This document shows, piece after piece, positions 29,117 through 37,841 of a stretch of DNA of 37,876 nt. Origin of the DNA: a virus. Below the pieces are notes generated by a model. That model saw only the letters and a program-made list of their open reading frames with translations, did no database searches and had not been told where the DNA came from. A program made the translations under genes and the position numbers. The first letter of the stretch is position 1. Each line of letters opens with the position of its first letter. The stretch spans positions 1 to 37,876 of IMG/VR virus record IMGVR_UViG_3300032093_000371. One strand, written 5' to 3'.

Positions 29117-30148
29117 TTAGAGTAAATGTGGTTGTGCCTCACGAACCCCGGCATTAGTCACCACCACATATTCTGGAAAATACTCCCGAAGATTGTTTGC
29201 ACCAGCATAAGATAATGCAGAACGCAATCCGTCAAGAAGTCCATCCACCACAAACTTCACCTTACCCTTAAATGGTACGATAGTTGATTCACCTTCAACA
29301 TTCCGTGTTGCTTGACCGTGGATACTCTTTGTTTCCAACGATGCCGCACCACGATACCGCTTATACAACCCATTTGCCTTCTCAATCATTGGACCTGGGG
29401 CTTCCTTCGTTCCTGCGATAAGTGAACCGAGGATAACGGAATTTGCTCCAACTCCCAGTGCCTTCGCAATGTCACCACCATTCCGAATACCACCACATGC
29501 GATAATCGGAACTTGGACTGCATGTGAACAATTAATCAACGATGTCACATTTGGAACACCAAATCCCGTTTTGATACGGGTAGTACAAAGTGACCCACCA
29601 CCAATCCCAACACGAATTGCATCAGCTCCTTCTTCTTGTAACCTAAGAGCCGCATCACCAGTTGCAACATTTCCTGCAACAATATCAATATGTGAAGGAA
29701 GAGTGTTCTTCATAGTACGAATTGCATCTACTACAAACTTATGGTACCCGTGTGCAACATCAATCAAAATAATATTGGCTCCGCTTTTAACCAATTCTTG
29801 TGCTCGTTCTAAGTAATCACCATTAGCACCGACTGCTGCCATCACATGCGGTGTAAACCAATCCTTGTTCTTTACATTATTGGCAACCTTAAGTACCTGT
29901 TCGGCTTCTTCTTCAATTGTATAAAAACGATGGATACATCCAATTCCACCAAGTGCTGCCATTGCGATTGCCATTTCACTATCACATACCGTGTCCATTG
30001 GAGATGCAACAAGTGGAACCCTAATCCTATAATTAGTAGTCAATTGGGTAGATAGGTCAATATTCTGACGAGATTCAATATCCGAGTATGCAGGAATCAA
30101 CTGGATATCGTCGTAGGTGAGTGCTTGTTTACCGTGTAATTGTGTCAT
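29117..30148 (-). CDS. guaB-like: IMP dehydrogenase/GMP reductase family protein
   Basis: This family converts IMP to XMP or GMP to IMP using NAD(P). The 343-residue TIM-barrel sequence has TYDDIQLIPAYSDI (N-terminal signature), the catalytic loop GIGGGSLCTTRIKTGFGVP with the active-site Cys near 188, GGIRNGGDIAKALGVGAN and YRGAASLET. The CBS pair that interrupts bacterial IMPDHs is absent, as in GMP reductases and some IMPDHs. The flap is short and lacks the Arg-Tyr dyad of classic IMPDH, while the C-terminus NAGVREAQPH resembles the IMPDH 'AGlrESHPH' end. The reaction direction is therefore open. ATG 30148 is preferred over an upstream TTG. It overlaps the glycosyltransferase gene by 20 bases and belongs to the UvdE operon. 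Confidence 0.93.
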   Translation of the reverse strand: MTQLHGKQALTYDDIQLIPAYSDIESRQNIDLSTQLTTNYRIRVPLVASPMDTVCDSEMAIAMAALGGIGCIHRFYTIEEEAEQVLKVANNVKNKDWFTPHVMAAVGANGDYLERAQELVKSGANIILIDVAHGYHKFVVDAIRTMKNTLPSHIDIVAGNVATGDAALRLQEEGADAIRVGIGGGSLCTTRIKTGFGVPNVTSLINCSHAVQVPIIACGGIRNGGDIAKALGVGANSVILGSLIAGTKEAPGPMIEKANGLYKRYRGAASLETKSIHGQATRNVEGESTIVPFKGKVKFVVDGLLDGLRSALSYAGANNLREYFPEYVVVTNAGVREAQPHLL

Positions 30149-30764
30149 AATAGTCGTTTTGTTTGCGTTGACGGTCAATATCCTTGATGTGATACAGACT
30201 CCATTCTTCTTCTGCTGGTAATGAAGCTGTGGTGTTATATCCTACAATGCGTTCGTGTACTGTTCCTTGCCACTTAATATGTTCAGCATTCTTATATAAA
30301 CGAGTCTGATAGTCTGGGAACATTACCCAACCCTTTTCATTGATTCTCCATCCCCAACGACGAATATCCTCATCAGTTAATCCACCCACAATATTCACGC
30401 GAGGAATCATAAACAAATCTACATGCTTATTGTTATCTACAATATCATGCATATAGTTGAGAAGATTACTATGAAACTTTTCGTCCGCATCAACTTGGAA
30501 AATGTATTCTCCGTTACACTTACTGTTCAAGAAATTCTTGTGTTCACCGAAGTTGTGATTAAGTTCGTGACTATACAGTTGGATTAAATCTGCGTTCTCA
30601 TAGTCATATAACATACTTGTGGTGAACGGGTCGGTAGAATTATCATCCACGACAACAATTTCATCGCCGGTTTGTTCACAGTGTGGAACAAGCTGGTCAA
30701 TCAGTTCACGAATATAGTCGCCTTCGTTATGCGTCGTAATAGCAAAAGAAATAAGCGGTGTCAT
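30129..30764 (-). CDS. Family 2 glycosyltransferase
   Basis: The protein has 211 residues and a GT-A fold. The N-terminal nucleotide-binding part has ISFAITTHNEGDYI and DEIVVVDDNSTD. NHNFGEHKNFLNSKCNGEYIFQVDADE contains the DxD-type metal site VDADE (about 92-96). The acceptor-side phrase is TRLYKNAEHIKWQGTVHERI, usual in small GT2 enzymes ('lRLFrn...f.g.vHE'). Possible acceptors are host surface glycans, phage DNA bases or virion proteins, and the sequence does not discriminate. It overlaps the upstream microgene by 4 bases and the IMPDH-family gene by 20 bases. Confidence 0.88.
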   Translation of the reverse strand: MTPLISFAITTHNEGDYIRELIDQLVPHCEQTGDEIVVVDDNSTDPFTTSMLYDYENADLIQLYSHELNHNFGEHKNFLNSKCNGEYIFQVDADEKFHSNLLNYMHDIVDNNKHVDLFMIPRVNIVGGLTDEDIRRWGWRINEKGWVMFPDYQTRLYKNAEHIKWQGTVHERIVGYNTTASLPAEEEWSLYHIKDIDRQRKQNDYYDTITR

Positions 30765-30910
30765 TGTAGTTTTTCTTTAAGGTACTTGAAAAGTTCTTGA
30801 AATAGAACAAAAGTCACAAATCCCAAATAGATAACCCCTAATACAGCGATTATTATAAGTGATACAATAACATATATCGTTCCCCGTAAAATGTCAAGTA
30901 GTGTATTCAT
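30761..30910 (-). CDS. 49-residue single-span membrane protein
   Basis: A 49-codon ORF starts MNTLLDILRGTIY, continues through a strongly hydrophobic helix (VIVSLIIIAVLGVIYLGF, about 14-31), and ends FKYLKEKLQ. Both junctions are ATGA 4-base overlaps: with the UvdE stop (30907-30910) and with the glycosyltransferase start (30761-30764). This is strong evidence that it is translated as part of the operon. Its function is unknown. It could anchor the small glycosyltransferase at the membrane, but that is inference from position. Confidence 0.78.
   Translation of the reverse strand: MNTLLDILRGTIYVIVSLIIIAVLGVIYLGFVTFVLFQELFKYLKEKLQ
30869..30897 (-). promoter_or_regulatory. Possible internal promoter within the 49-residue gene
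   Basis: Minus-strand TTGACA (30892-30897), 17 bases, then TATGTT (30869-30874), with the same ACTTGACA context as the other promoters. It lies inside codons of the small membrane protein and could give additional expression of the glycosyltransferase. The -10 is weaker and the site is within coding sequence, so confidence is low. Confidence 0.3.
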
Positions 30911-31806
30911 ACTAACTCCCGATATTTGAATAGTGCTAGTTCTTTAGCTTTTGCTTCGAGGTCAACATCCAACGTGAGTCCAAAATCGTCAATACGAGAA
31001 AAGACATAATCAGCATGAGCCCGAGGATTGCCTGTAACATTTTCATTGATATTTTTACTCTCACTATAATGGAAAAGTGGTGTGATACCTTCCGGCCAAG
31101 TGCCGGCGGCAAGTTCTGCTGCTTCTTGGGTGGTCAATCCATCGGGGTGAAACTGATGATGGAAATAGTCGAAGGTAAGCGGAATACCCAACTCTGTGTG
31201 TAGGTATGTAAAAAGTTGAATGATGGAAAATGAGTTTTCTTTGTCATCATTCTCGACCACCATACGAGCTTGAAGATTTGGTGACAACTTACGGAAATTA
31301 TCAATCCATCGTTGAGCAGTTTCTTCGGAAAAGTTCATACCCACATGAATATTGATTGCATTGTAGGGAGTTGTATCAAGCCCCATAAGGTCAAATACTT
31401 CGGAGTGAAGTTCCAAGTCTTTGATAGAATTCTCGACTGCTTTTGGATTGGTTGACCCCAACTTTACGAAATGGTCAGGATGAGCGGTAATGCGCTGACC
31501 AGTATGTTTTGCGAAGTTACCGCAGAGTCGTAAGGTACTGGCAATCTCAAAGAAATCTGGTAGGTTTGTGGACTTGTATTCGGTACCCCACGGGAATATA
31601 CCAGACCCCATACGGAATACTTTTACTCCGTTGTCGGCGTTCCACATAAGGATTTCAAGGAGGTCTTTGGCGTTTGCGAGTGCCAATTCAGATGCGTATT
31701 TAATACCCTTGGCTTCAAATGTGGCTTTACGCATAGCACGGCCAGTAGTAATGCCCTTCTTATTTAGTGTATTGTTGATGCAACAGTAACCAACGTTGAT
31801 AGGCAC
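30907..31806 (-). CDS. uvdE: UV-damage endonuclease (UvdE/UVDE family)
   Basis: UVDE nicks DNA immediately 5' of UV photoproducts and other lesions. The TIM-barrel protein carries the family's landmarks: VGYCCINNTL at the N-terminus, FRMGSGIFPWG (about 70), ITAHPDHFVKLGS (about 110), NIHVGM, VVENDD, TFDYFHHQFHPDG with clustered metal-binding His/Asp, and FHYSESK. I choose the GTG at 31806 (299 residues). It is preceded by GGGGG at good spacing, a start there begins MPINVGY as in homologues, and the promoter at 31834-31862 would put the mRNA start about 20 bases ahead. A TTG at 31818 would add four residues. T4 uses the unrelated glycosylase DenV instead, so this is an alternative UV-repair route. 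Confidence 0.93.
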   Translation of the reverse strand: MPINVGYCCINNTLNKKGITTGRAMRKATFEAKGIKYASELALANAKDLLEILMWNADNGVKVFRMGSGIFPWGTEYKSTNLPDFFEIASTLRLCGNFAKHTGQRITAHPDHFVKLGSTNPKAVENSIKDLELHSEVFDLMGLDTTPYNAINIHVGMNFSEETAQRWIDNFRKLSPNLQARMVVENDDKENSFSIIQLFTYLHTELGIPLTFDYFHHQFHPDGLTTQEAAELAAGTWPEGITPLFHYSESKNINENVTGNPRAHADYVFSRIDDFGLTLDVDLEAKAKELALFKYRELV

Positions 31807-31833
31807 AGAAACCCCCAATTAAGTAGTATACTA

Positions 31834-31870: not shown

Positions 31871-32836
31871 TTAAAAGATATTAATATCTTTATGTTTAGC
31901 CATAGTTTTTTTCATCCAAAATTTTTCCAATACATCTTCGGTTTCTTCTTTTGTCATATACTGAGGAAATGGGTCATCTCCTTCTAATGTATCCATCAAA
32001 TCGTCAGACAATCTTCGTTCTTCAGGTATACTTTCTCCATATATTTCATATGATTTTTCTTCAGGTTGCTCCCGTTTCATTAAAAAATTATATGCAAGAA
32101 TTAAACAGATTGATAACGGGTCAAATACTAACACAATCACTAGTATAAACCATTTAACTACTGTATCTAATGGAACACCAATTGCGCGAGAAATATATAC
32201 GAATGTTCCGATATCTGAATTAGTTGTGATGGCAACATCTGTGGTCAAACTTTTTGCTTTTAAACTATCTCGTTGTGATGACGCTTGATTGATTTCTTTT
32301 TGTAATGTGTTTGCAGTTCTATTCAATTCTGTTAAACTATTTTGTGCTGACCGAATGGATGTATTAGAACCCGTGGTACTTTTACTGATAAGATTATCAA
32401 TACGATTTTCTTGTTGACCACGAAGCGCAATAATCTGGTCTAATCGTTGTGTCTTTCGTTGTATTTCTTGGTCAAGGGTTTGTGCTTGTGAATTCAAGAT
32501 TTGCACTTCTGCGTTCATCTTTAATGGGTCAGCTGCAACCTTTGCATATGCAGACGATAGATATCCATAGATACCCGCTGATGTAATACCGATAAGCACA
32601 ACGCTTGCCACCAACATATAACTCTTTAATGCTTTTGGTATTTCATTCCAATATCGGTAAAGAAATGAGATACCCACCAGCTTACCTAATTCCAAAGCAC
32701 CAGCCATCACCATCGCAGACACTGCTGCTCCTGCGAATAAGGTACCAATGCCCGTTACTGAGAACAGTGCTGCGCTTCCTGCAATTACTAACGCAGTAAA
32801 TGAAACCAGTGTTTTGAAATTAAAAAATTTACTCAT
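31871..32836 (-). CDS. Multi-span membrane protein with central coiled coil
   Basis: The protein has 321 residues. Hydrophobic segments at about 10-30, 32-55, 73-95 and 220-250 suggest four membrane spans. Between the third and fourth spans is a roughly 110-residue Gln/Ser/Leu-rich coiled coil (LNSQAQTLDQEIQRKTQRLD and onward). The C-terminal 70 residues are acidic and cytoplasmic-like. Similar membrane/coiled-coil proteins occur in marine T4-like phages without known function. Its ATG has GGAGAATAT directly upstream. It starts right after the terminator at 32845-32889 and ends just before the uvdE promoter, so it stands largely alone transcriptionally. Confidence 0.8.
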   Translation of the reverse strand: MSKFFNFKTLVSFTALVIAGSAALFSVTGIGTLFAGAAVSAMVMAGALELGKLVGISFLYRYWNEIPKALKSYMLVASVVLIGITSAGIYGYLSSAYAKVAADPLKMNAEVQILNSQAQTLDQEIQRKTQRLDQIIALRGQQENRIDNLISKSTTGSNTSIRSAQNSLTELNRTANTLQKEINQASSQRDSLKAKSLTTDVAITTNSDIGTFVYISRAIGVPLDTVVKWFILVIVLVFDPLSICLILAYNFLMKREQPEEKSYEIYGESIPEERRLSDDLMDTLEGDDPFPQYMTKEETEDVLEKFWMKKTMAKHKDINIF

Positions 32837-32844
32837 ATATTCTC

Positions 32845-32889
32845 CAAAAGAAAAACGAACCGAACCAGTAAGAACCAGTCCGGCTCGTT
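32845..32889 (-). terminator. Intrinsic terminator after the hsp20 / microprotein unit
   Basis: On the transcribed strand a 15-bp stem starts AACGAGCCGG, pairs (with four G-U pairs) to the arm ending CGGTTCGTT, and is followed by TTTTTCTTTT. This is a classic rho-independent terminator and ends the transcript that carries hsp20, the Cys-rich microgene and the SD-displaying hairpin. Confidence 0.85.
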
Positions 32890-32930
32890 ATATTTCTAGT
32901 TTATCTCCTTAAATTAAGGTTGGATACCAG

Positions 32931-32970
32931 ACATAACCGATGTGGATCACCTCCCGTTACTCGGTTATGT
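32931..32970 (-). ncRNA. Hairpin displaying an extended Shine-Dalgarno sequence in its loop
   Basis: Perfect 10-bp arms ACATAACCGA and TCGGTTATGT enclose a 20-base loop. In RNA sense the loop contains GGAGGTGATCCA (32943-32954), the exact complement of the last bases of bacterial 16S rRNA (TGGATCACCTCC) over 12 positions. No start codon lies at normal distance behind it. The only nearby frames are a 6-codon MSGIQP and a GTG that overlaps the SD itself. The hairpin includes the last codons and stop of the Cys-rich microgene, and the strong terminator follows 42 bases later. The structure is seen directly. A ribosome-binding, decoy or regulatory role is inference. Confidence 0.65.
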
Positions 32971-33013
32971 GGTTTACACAGCAACTACACTTACAATCTA
33001 CACAACAGCACAT
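32957..33013 (-). CDS. 18-residue cysteine-rich microprotein
   Basis: An ORF of 18 codons encodes MCCCVDCKCSCCVNHITE. Seven of the first twelve residues are cysteine, arranged CCC-x2-C-x-C-x-CC, plus one His near the end. A full AGGAGG site lies seven bases before the ATG, making translation likely despite the size. The composition suggests thiolate metal binding like a minimal metallothionein, or a redox-active peptide, but no family is recognised. It lies 27 bases after the hsp20 stop in the same transcript and ends inside the SD-displaying hairpin. Confidence 0.6.
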   Translation of the reverse strand: MCCCVDCKCSCCVNHITE

Positions 33014-33040
33014 ACAGACCTCCTGTTGGTTAAAGTGAAA

Positions 33041-33520
33041 TTACTTAATTGTAACCTTTGTACTAGCTGGTTCCTTTGTCAATTTTTGGATTGTTACAGT
33101 CAATAACCCATTATCAAACTGTGCATCTACTGCTGAGGCATCCAATTGGTCACCGAGCTTAAATGAACGACTGAACGAACTACGCTTGAGTTCACGAAGT
33201 AGATAAACGGATTTATCAGTTTGCTCGTTCAATTGAGATGCGCCACCCGAAATGGTCAAGACACCTTCCTTAACCTCAATATCAATTTCATTCTTCTTGT
33301 AACCAGCGAGTTCCGCTTCAATTGTCACAGACTCGTCATTTGAGATTACATTGACCTTCGGATATGCTGCCTTTCCAAAAGGTTCTGCTCCCCAATGTTG
33401 GAAAAACTCTGGGAAATCTTTTCGAGCAAATTCATCGAACATCTTATCGAATGTACTGATGAAGTTATCCCGATTGTTCAAAACCGTTGACCCGAATGGG
33501 CGAAATACTAAATGAGTCAT
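33041..33520 (-). CDS. hsp20: Small heat-shock protein (Hsp20/alpha-crystallin)
   Basis: Small Hsps hold unfolding proteins. T4-like marine phages often carry one. The 159-residue protein has the alpha-crystallin domain at about 55-150: YPKVNVISNDESVTIEAELAGY, EIDIEVKEGVLTISG, RSSFSRSFKLGDQLD, and the closing DNGLLTVTIQKL. The domain is flanked by an aromatic N-terminal arm and a short C-terminal tail. ATG 33520 is chosen because AGGAGG stands seven bases ahead. A longer GTG start at 33550 would place the AGGAGG within coding sequence. The leader between the upstream terminator and the ATG folds into two hairpins, so temperature or stress control of translation is possible. Confidence 0.93.
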   Translation of the reverse strand: MTHLVFRPFGSTVLNNRDNFISTFDKMFDEFARKDFPEFFQHWGAEPFGKAAYPKVNVISNDESVTIEAELAGYKKNEIDIEVKEGVLTISGGASQLNEQTDKSVYLLRELKRSSFSRSFKLGDQLDASAVDAQFDNGLLTVTIQKLTKEPASTKVTIK

Positions 33521-33594: not shown

Positions 33595-33636
33595 AATATA
33601 AATATAACCGTCCAAGTGATTTTGAACGGTTATATT
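33595..33636 (-). terminator. Intrinsic terminator after the HD-domain gene
   Basis: Arms AATATAACCGT and ACGGTTATATT pair over 11 bases and continue with a further 3 bp (TTG/CAA) after one mismatch. A U-rich TTTATATTA follows on the transcribed strand. It lies 8 bases after the stop of the HD gene (33645) and ahead of the hsp20 leader, so it separates the two units. Confidence 0.75.
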
Positions 33637-35811: not shown

Positions 35812-36148
35812 TAGTGGACCCGCAGGGAGTCGAACCCTGGTCCGAGACTGCTTCCTACTAAATGTTTATGTGTGTAGCTGATTGTTAGATGTTTCCGTGT
35901 TTTGAATAATCAGCGAAACCACACGGATAAGAGTTTGTAAATTTGATATCAGATACCAACTCATCTCTCCGATACTACACCACAGTTATGAACGATAGTA
36001 ACCCTATGTGGGTCAGATTACTTCGTCAGGCTGCTTACGCAGCGAGGGCTAATTGATTGCCAGTTGAAATTTTTAGTCTGTTTTACCAGTATTACTAAAC
36101 TGGACACAAAATCTAGTCATCTACATCCCGTCGAAACCGGTCGGGCCC
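35812..36148 (-). ncRNA. ssrA: tmRNA (one-piece), predicted tag AGNQLALAA
   Basis: tmRNA frees ribosomes stalled on broken mRNA and tags the nascent protein for proteolysis. The 5' end GGGCCCG (36148-36142) pairs with CGGGTCC at 35822-35816, including a G-U at the third pair, which is the alanyl-tRNA synthetase identity element. The conserved 5' phrase TTTCGACGGGAT and the T-arm CAGGG-TTCGACT-CCCTG are present. The discriminator is A (35815). The genome encodes CTA rather than CCA after it, so the CCA must be added. About 87 bases from the 5' end, GGC at 36061 starts the tag frame GNQLALAA followed by TAA (36037-36035). The ALAA end matches bacterial tags. A resume codon slightly upstream cannot be excluded. 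Confidence 0.93.
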
Positions 36149-37156: not shown

Positions 37157-37229
37157 GTTGCCCCCCGTGGATTCGAACCACGATAGCCAGGTCCAAAGCC
37201 TGGCGTCCTGCCATTGAACGAGAGGGCAA
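37157..37229 (-). tRNA. trnQ: tRNA-Gln(UUG)
   Basis: Cloverleaf: acceptor TTGCCCT with GGGGCAA, including the U1-A72 pair typical of tRNA-Gln. D-stem GTTC with GGAC and G18-G19 present. Anticodon arm CCAGG-CTTTGGA-CCTGG gives anticodon UUG. T-arm contains TTCGAAT. The discriminator is C and the CCA is not encoded. The promoter at 37270-37299 lies about 40 bases upstream. Confidence 0.92.
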
Positions 37230-37269
37230 TGCGGGGGATGTGTTATGAGATATCAGCTCACTCATTAAA

Positions 37270-37299
37270 AATATATAGGCGGACACACCACTTCGTCAA
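37270..37299 (-). promoter_or_regulatory. Promoter-like element before tRNA-Gln
   Basis: On the minus strand TTGACG (37294-37299), an 18-base spacer, and TATATT (37270-37275). It differs from the consensus by one base in the -35 and by one in spacing. A transcript starting near 37263 would contain tRNA-Gln, the lipoprotein gene and further downstream RNA genes. Confidence 0.5.
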
Positions 37300-37450
37300 G
37301 CTTCCCCAAACCGCCTGCTAGTTTCCATACTAAACTAGCCAAAACGTCTCTAGGCCTAACGACCCTAGAACCCGCCCTATCATTTTTAAAAGTCTTTCCA
37401 TTCGCCCAAAGGCTGTTAACGAGGTGAAAGGTAGGGAAAAGGCCTCGGAT
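37300..37450 (-). ncRNA. Candidate structured non-coding RNA, unknown family
   Basis: The roughly 150 bases between the basic microgene and the tRNA-Gln promoter contain perfect inverted repeats. One is GCTAGTTT/AAACTAGC at 37317-37339 (8 bp, 7-base loop). Another is TCTAGG/CCTAGA at 37349-37369. A short GCC/GGC hairpin lies near 37410. An ORF of 80 codons crosses the region, but it needs a TTG start and overlaps the microgene, so coding is unlikely. T4 also has stable RNAs of unknown function within its tRNA cluster. I do not recognise the family. Confidence 0.4.
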
Positions 37451-37454
37451 AGTA

Positions 37455-37547
37455 CTAATGTTTACGCTTTCTATTTTTCCAACGATTGTTGCGTTTCTTT
37501 GAGCCAATCTTACGACGACCCTTTCCGCACTTTTTTGGATGTGGCAT
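37455..37547 (-). CDS. 30-residue highly basic microprotein
   Basis: A 30-codon ORF starts MPHPKKCGKGRRKIGS and continues with KKRNNRWKNRKRKH to the stop TAG. About half of all residues are Lys or Arg, with no acidic ones. An ACGGAG site stands before ATG 37547, and the gene is flanked by tRNA-Glu and the structured stretch. The shape recalls small ribosomal proteins such as bL34/bL36 or an RNA-condensing peptide, but no family is claimed. Binding to rRNA, tRNA or DNA is the natural inference. Confidence 0.65.
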   Translation of the reverse strand: MPHPKKCGKGRRKIGSKKRNNRWKNRKRKH

Positions 37548-37568
37548 ATTTGACTCCGTGAATATTCA

Positions 37569-37640
37569 TACCGCGTACGGGAATCGAACCCGTCTTACCA
37601 GAGTGAAAGTCTAGCGTCCTAGCCGATAGACGAACGCGGC
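37569..37640 (-). tRNA. trnE: tRNA-Glu(UUC)
   Basis: Acceptor GCCGCGT with ACGCGGT (first pair G-U). The D-loop has GG. Anticodon arm CTAGA-CTTTCAC-TCTGG gives UUC. T-arm is GACGGGTTCGATTCCCGT, and the discriminator is A. CCA is not encoded. The 5' end is about 7 bases from the predicted start of the promoter at 37654-37682. Confidence 0.94.
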
Positions 37641-37653
37641 GTATAGAAATATA

Positions 37654-37682
37654 AATATAAACAACCAATTCAAATTTGTCAA
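37654..37682 (-). promoter_or_regulatory. Sigma70-like promoter inside the tRNA cluster
   Basis: On the minus strand TTGACA (37677-37682), exactly 17 bases, and TATATT (37654-37659), in the ACTTGACA context. It lies in the gap between tRNA-Leu and tRNA-Glu and would start RNA synthesis close to 37647. It is essentially the same as the uvdE promoter. Confidence 0.72.
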
Positions 37683-37683
37683 G

Positions 37684-37765
37684 TGCTCCCGGTGAGACTC
37701 GAACTCACAAGCCTTTAGGGCAGAAGTTTTTGAGACTTCCGTGTATACCATTCCACCACAAGAGC
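37684..37765 (-). tRNA. trnL: tRNA-Leu(CAA)
   Basis: A class II tRNA of 82 bases: acceptor GCTCTTG with CGGGAGC, anticodon arm GAAGT-CTCAAAA-ACTTC (anticodon CAA), a long variable arm including GCCCTAAAGGC, T-arm GTGAGTTCGAGTCTCAC, and discriminator A. It reads the UUG leucine codon. Confidence 0.93.
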
Positions 37766-37769
37766 AAAG

Positions 37770-37841
37770 AGCGAGTGGCGGGAGTCGAACCCGCGTCTCT
37801 AGCTTGGAAGGCTAGGATAATAGCCGTTATATGACACTCGC
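37770..37841 (-). tRNA. trnG: tRNA-Gly(UCC), canonical
   Basis: Acceptor GCGAGTG with CACTCGC, D-loop with GG, anticodon arm CTAGC-CTTCCAA-GCTAG (U33, anticodon UCC), T-arm GCGGGTTCGACTCCCGC, and discriminator U. All conserved tRNA positions are normal, in contrast with the second tRNA-Gly(UCC) at 36820-36890. Confidence 0.95.

Follow-up and report, generated by a model that had tools for sequence, protein, structure and literature searches.

A covarying hairpin of T4-like lake phages presents an extended Shine-Dalgarno sequence beside a stop codon and with no conserved start codon

To our knowledge, Shine-Dalgarno (SD) sequences that lack a start codon are rare, and the known case, STAB-SD, protects 5' ends. 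In the STAB-SD of the Bacillus thuringiensis cry3A mRNA, a 30S subunit bound to a start-less SD protects the message (Agaisse & Lereclus 1996, reviewed in PMC4113751). The site lies near the 5' end, where the 30S blocks the exonuclease RNase J1 (PMC4113751). A second system is the extended SD of Flavobacteriales rpsU, which forms a 9–13 bp SD–anti-SD helix and very stable ribosome complexes (PMC9976891). The Flavobacterium extended SD binds ribosomes even without initiator tRNA, and that of rpsU precedes a start codon and autoregulates bS21 (PMC9976891). The phage locus described here shares features with both and matches neither.

The window is the whole 37,876-nt stretch analysed, IMG/VR record IMGVR_UViG_3300032093_000371. 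The features of the locus, in the order of transcription, are:

33041..33520 (-): Hsp20/alpha-crystallin small heat-shock protein gene, ATG at 33520 (Pfam HSP20, E = 5e-20)
33018..33024 (-): Shine-Dalgarno sequence AGGAGGT of a short ORF (sequence; conserved in relatives)
32957..33013 (-): short ORF MCCCVDCKCSCCVNHITE, ending in a stop codon (sequence; homologous Cys-rich ORFs in 33 elements)
32961..32970 (-): 5' arm of the hairpin, ACATAACCGA (sequence, RNAfold, covariation)
32944..32954 (-): putative start-less extended SD GGAGGUGAUCC in the loop (16S-tail duplex energy and substitution pattern)
32931..32940 (-): 3' arm of the hairpin, TCGGTTATGT, with a non-conserved ATG at 32934-32932 (sequence, RNAfold, covariation)
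32902..32921 (-): second conserved motif AACCTTAATTTAAGGAGATA, anti-SD-like AACCY and then GGAGA (nearly all relatives)
32854..32889 (-): intrinsic terminator, a 16-bp stem and then a T-run (fold; relatives)
31871..32836 (-): gene encoding a membrane/coiled-coil protein of 321 aa, led by an SD of its own, TTGGAG (flank marker)

Read on the minus strand from 32970 to 32931, the hairpin is ACATAACCGA-GTAACGGGAGGTGATCCACA-TCGGTTATGT. The first-pass annotation had described a perfect 10-bp stem with a 20-base loop that complements the 16S rRNA tail over 12 bases without a mismatch, and both parts of this description hold. RNAfold yields the same stem from the 33040-32845 RNA, as that annotation had proposed checking, and this 196-nt region folds with z = -2.9 against dinucleotide shuffles. 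The loop segment GGAGGUGAUCCA is the window's best match to the 16S tail. Its duplex with UGGAUCACCUCCUUA reaches -24.8 kcal/mol with 13 contiguous pairs, the SD pairing being extendable to 32955 and 32943, whereas the runner-up independent site on either strand reaches -15.5 kcal/mol (25,238 sampled 20-nt windows). GGAGGTGATCC occurs once in the record. Copies with up to two mismatches are found at chance level in the window (5 against 4.9 expected), so the exact copy stands alone. A chance origin of the loop match is ruled out, since the match is unique in the window and conserved in 33 distinct relatives.

In order to follow the element across phages, IMG/VR was searched with the two flanking proteins, giving 32 loci each, and a divergent clade was added through pattern scans and a wider profile search. 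The collection comprises 33 distinct copies, with each phage genome contributing one. Every complete region downstream of hsp20 in the hsp20-protein search has the same layout, and a covariance model, the search suggested in the first-pass annotation, finds the element once per genome with E values of 1e-15 to 1e-6. The record of the window is a fragment; among its relatives, longer records (146–148 kb) carry a T4-type gp23, which bears out the earlier assignment to T4-like phages, and their gp23 and baseplate proteins are nearest to those of Flavobacterium phage immuto and Microcystis phage Mel-JY01. The covariance model finds no element in three cultured or assembled relatives, immuto, Mel-JY01 and LR756508, and Hsp20 relatives of other phages, at roughly 47% identity or less, are without it; the element is therefore a feature of one clade. 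A blastn search against INPHARED returned nothing similar among known phages, and a pattern for the commonest element forms found no cellular copies in genome contigs. The claim that no such element had been described agrees with our searches: Rfam gave no family at the gathering threshold in 32840-33060 (best E = 0.16, below the cut-off), and literature searches for a phage start-less SD hairpin returned nothing described.

The stem is conserved as a structure. Its eight outer pairs hold in almost every one of the 33 distinct elements, and two of them change on both sides: pair 3 is A-U in 22, G-C in 10 and G-U in 1, and pair 8 is C-G in 21 and U-A in 11. Because the elements share ancestry, these counts cannot be read as independent events. 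In a 26-sequence alignment, the covariation score of the outer stem was reached in 0 of 500 shuffles and fell sharply when the partner was slid. Stems of quite different sequence enclose the same SD in L411/L412 and in L414, modified stems occur in L417, L420 and L422, and L598 has an additional U-A pair at position 2 (read by eye). The loop sequence and the stem covariation, on whose presence in close relatives the first-pass annotation had staked its reading, are thus both there. By this comparative evidence, the element is a real RNA family in uncultured T4-like lake phages.

The loop evolves as if its partner were fixed. As the 33 elements had been screened with a core pattern, we re-derived the loop claim only from loci fetched through flanking-gene homology, in which low-scoring "loops" are loci without the element or with the true element elsewhere. 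Their consensus is RGGRGGUGRUYN, with seven G/U positions invariant. Changes in genuine elements are A to G at three positions and C to U at two, plus three exceptions at the two ends (the first position to U in L414, and the last position to A or G). G-U wobble keeps pairing, so the A to G and C to U changes fit a fixed partner 3'-UCCUCCACUAGG-5'. Eight substitution types were seen, and five of these are the only five allowed among 36 possible, a bias of about 1.5e-4 by hypergeometric arithmetic that ignores relatedness. Across all 33 elements, the 16S-tail duplexes range from -19.9 to -25.4 kcal/mol with at least 11 consecutive pairs. An inner GGA/UCC stem was rejected as the cause of loop conservation: it gives no covariation signal (106 of 500 shuffles reach its score), which means that self-pairing is not what preserves the loop sequence. 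The apical A to G change in L011 is compatible with the 16S partner and has no inner-stem role. Nor is the arrangement a generic property of GGRGGTGRT sites, as the other sites in these genomes form weak stems and show nothing of the layout. The substitution pattern, with the stem covariation, supports the earlier proposal that the loop is made to pair with the 16S tail, and selection for this pairing is very probable.

The predicted fold exposes the SD rather than hiding it. Its mean unpaired probability is 0.53 when the whole element is folded and 0.37 with the 5' arm masked, the latter close to a control with shuffled downstream sequence (0.38). As openness rises with an intact 5' arm, the stem presents the SD, with a predicted openness of only about half. 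ROSE-like RNA thermometers are common on hsp20 mRNAs. A thermometer, in which a hairpin hides the SD of a downstream start, was rejected here, as no start follows and the stem increases SD exposure.

The surrounding genes suggest where this RNA ends. The hsp20 gene, with an SD (AGGAGGT) upstream of its ATG, precedes the element in most relatives. The terminator lies 30–46 nt beyond the 3' arm in 28 of 33 relatives, and the 321-aa gene sits past it, separate from the hsp20/short-ORF unit. We judge from this arrangement that the element closes the hsp20/short-ORF transcript unit at its 3' end.

Several loci vary the arrangement. In L239, 1120-1400 (+), the short ORF, hairpin and terminator occur as a unit behind another gene's terminator, with no hsp20 directly upstream. 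L034/L031 have an extra gene inserted between the element and the 321-aa gene, and in L221 a deletion in the same interval removes the terminator. At 33602-33635 in the window, the AACCG/CGGTT stem recurs in the terminator hairpin of an HD-domain gene, and the model matches this hairpin weakly (E = 9e-4). Past the hairpin, the AACCY...GGAGA motif contains an SD-like piece, likewise without a conserved start codon.

The first-pass annotation overlooked that the hairpin overlaps the end of an SD-led short ORF whose stop lies inside the loop. This Cys-rich ORF of 18 aa is unannotated and absent from automatic ORF lists. The 5' arm is made up of its last codons, CAC ATA ACC GAG, and 2 nt separate its TAA (32959-32957) from GGAGG. 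The distance from the in-frame stop to GGRGG is -1 to 4 nt in 35 of 35 contexts counted, and exactly 3 in 24. Deeper relatives have unrelated ORFs (MLR, MVNVLLLPLCCNTQTII, MFVFFSDSGIVKHRY, MRGSSPEAVELVKLVM, MSMLLLPEKTNCNH and MIRSFKSAVVNHKNYNRYN, each closed by a stop that again adjoins the SD). There, the ORF sequence and the stem differ, while the short ORF, the stop beside the extended SD and the enclosing hairpin are kept. This adjacency across unrelated ORFs argues that the delivery of a terminating ribosome is conserved, not the peptide, although the Cys codons of the main clade (MCxC...) also look to be under selection. Going by known footprints, we infer that a terminating 70S and an SD-bound 30S would be mutually exclusive: the 70S would cover the SD and the SD-bound 30S the last codons of the ORF, so both could not coexist.

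We tentatively propose, with somewhat less than even confidence, that the element offers a start-less, over-long SD to 30S subunits behind the stop of a translated short ORF and so parks ribosomes in cis. The short ORF, with its strong SD, would recruit ribosomes that translate to the stop and melt the 5' arm. Once the 70S departs, the hairpin would reform, and its loop would make 11–13 nt available for the 16S tail, whether of the post-termination 30S or of a free one nearby. The 16S pairing is backed by the conservation pattern, and from it we infer the capture of the 30S. Lacking a start codon at the usual distance, the 30S could not proceed and would stay parked between the short ORF and the terminator. 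Its effect there would be in cis: most likely it would protect the hsp20/short-ORF mRNA at its 3' end, on the model of STAB-SD, where the 30S guards a 5' end. Alternatively, the parked 30S could block the next ribosome at the last codons of the short ORF. Several points weigh on the parking reading: a 12-bp helix inside a 16–20 nt loop may be strained, the SD is predicted to be only about half open, and the second conserved motif, AACCY..GGAGA, falls outside what parking explains and counts against it.

A bolder and more doubtful version makes the element a phage 30S trap, in which the short ORF feeds terminating ribosomes to the start-less SD, possibly tuned to ribosomes carrying phage bS21. 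The gene for bS21 was found in 5 of 6 relative records checked first and in 1 of 3 further ones, near gp23 and tens of kb from the element. If true, the trap would be a dedicated ribosome-parking device at a transcript 3' end. A covarying hairpin, maintained across a phage clade, in which an over-long SD is tied to a stop codon would represent a new means by which an RNA retains ribosomes once translation has ended, and it would give the phage control over the 30S in a clade that often encodes bS21, a ribosomal protein of the anti-SD region.

A strongly conserved 16S complementarity in a presented loop near a terminator could also belong to a decoy acting in trans, an abundant terminated or processed 3' RNA that would tie up 30S subunits or 16S tails and so reduce initiation on host or early phage mRNAs. 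The L239 unit, which is independent of a directly upstream hsp20, would suit such an RNA. A decoy does not need a translated ORF with its stop fixed by the SD, yet this is the most constant feature of the family, and a single locus would have to approach ribosome numbers. It would also harm the phage itself, as 27 of 37 phage genes carry an SD match of 4 nt or longer. A decoy is possible and less likely than parking, given stop-codon geometry that it does not need, and we consider it unlikely overall. The stop directly before the SD core in every relative favors a cis role tied to termination over a free decoy RNA, one of three candidate roles, with a stall site and a localization handle, put forward in the first-pass annotation.

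It is decidedly unlikely that the SD instead initiates a small ORF in the 3' arm, or uses an unusual start, coupled to termination of the short ORF. The earlier statement that no usable start follows needs partial correction, as the ATG at 32934-32932 opens the frame MSGIQP and a stop; this ATG is not conserved in relatives. It lies 15 nt past GGAGG inside the 3' arm, most elements of the A-U clade have an ATG 14–15 nt past GGAGG, and the closeness of stop and SD recalls termination-reinitiation. However, in many relatives (the G-C clade) a G-C pair has replaced A-U in the stem and the ATG reads ACG, which indicates that pairing was retained at the expense of the start codon. The spacing is too long, and the products of 6–13 codons have no common sequence and share no open frame downstream. 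MSGIQP was rejected as a product since its start codon is missing in the G-C clade.

Hairpins with GGA in the loop are a known protein target of the CsrA type, and a CsrA-like protein, a RegA-like protein or a ribosomal protein such as phage bS21 could read the loop GGA, its likeness to the 16S complement being incidental. That relatives encode bS21, a neighbor of the anti-SD on the 30S, would fit such a site. Nevertheless, the invariance extends over UGRUY past the SD core and the variation obeys the G-U wobble rule for an RNA partner, which a GGA-binding protein would not predict; we regard this reading as improbable. The least probable is a sequestration or attenuation switch, in which the SD would be intermittently paired to GGUUAY of the 3' arm or to AACCY downstream and short-ORF translation would toggle access: both motifs are kept across clades and the predicted fold of L411/L412 has GGUUACUUC paired to the SD, yet the switch was rejected because, with the 5' arm masked, the SD is hidden no more than in the shuffled control.

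The host can be approached through other genes. Cellular relatives of the 321-aa protein (L330-L351) are almost all from Opitutales/Verrucomicrobiota, a possible hint of the host. Phage bS21 genes (L284, L285, L324-L329) mostly have strong SDs, and by eye their products match neither Flavobacterium nor Opitutales/Verrucomicrobiota bS21 well. In Bacteroidetes bS21, an aromatic residue reportedly holds the anti-SD (PMC9723584); in a visual alignment, phage bS21 is unlike that of F. johnsoniae and has no such residue. In spite of the gp23 and baseplate similarity to immuto and Mel-JY01, a Bacteroidota host with a hidden anti-SD is disfavored by the divergent phage bS21, the SD-bearing genes and the Opitutales/Verrucomicrobiota homologues. 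The window also carries a tmRNA gene at 35812-36148 (-) (Rfam RF00023, 114 bits; missed by ARAGORN), whose tag, in our own reading, ends GNQLALAA before the stop and which is unusual phage cargo, and four tRNA genes (Gln, Glu, Leu, Gly) at 37157-37841 (-). IMP dehydrogenase/GMP reductase-like and UvdE UV-endonuclease genes at 29117-30178 and 30907-31818 (-) are likely auxiliary host-type genes.

Set against known systems, the element differs from each. The strong SD AGGAGGTGATC offers a simple comparison, since ordinary sites have the same letters after a stop codon: at 51 of 74 such sites a start codon follows GGAGG by 4–13 nt, and none of the 74 combines a hairpin with a short ORF except L489, a copy of the same family. 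Lambda bar represents the bacterial minigene type; here, no conserved few-codon ORF is read from the SD, as the ATG is lost in the G-C clade and the products are unrelated. CsrB/RsmZ-type RNAs present GGA in many repeated short hairpin loops, whereas the phage element is one 12-nt loop whose variation follows RNA pairing. Side by side with this family, we noted a start-less extended SD, AGGAGGTGATCC, between a stop and a terminator-like hairpin in L494 and L471, two unrelated phage contigs; start-less SDs ahead of terminators may be more widespread.

With the rpsU-type SD, the element shares a run of at least 11 pairs, within the 9–13 consecutive pairs of that class; it differs in having neither a start codon behind the loop SD nor a neighboring rpsU. 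STAB-SD is the closest working analogue. Both have a 16S-complementary, SD-like stretch that is proposed to bind 30S subunits and does not direct initiation, the absence of initiation in the phage element being deduced from its lack of a conserved start. STAB-SD lies at a 5' location and is not described as a hairpin loop by a stop codon, whereas the phage element is a covarying hairpin between a stop codon and an intrinsic terminator, and the literature searched describes no 3'-end counterpart. From these comparisons, the element appears to be a further form of start-less, presumably 30S-binding SD, at the wrong end of the RNA for STAB-SD and without the start codon of the rpsU type.
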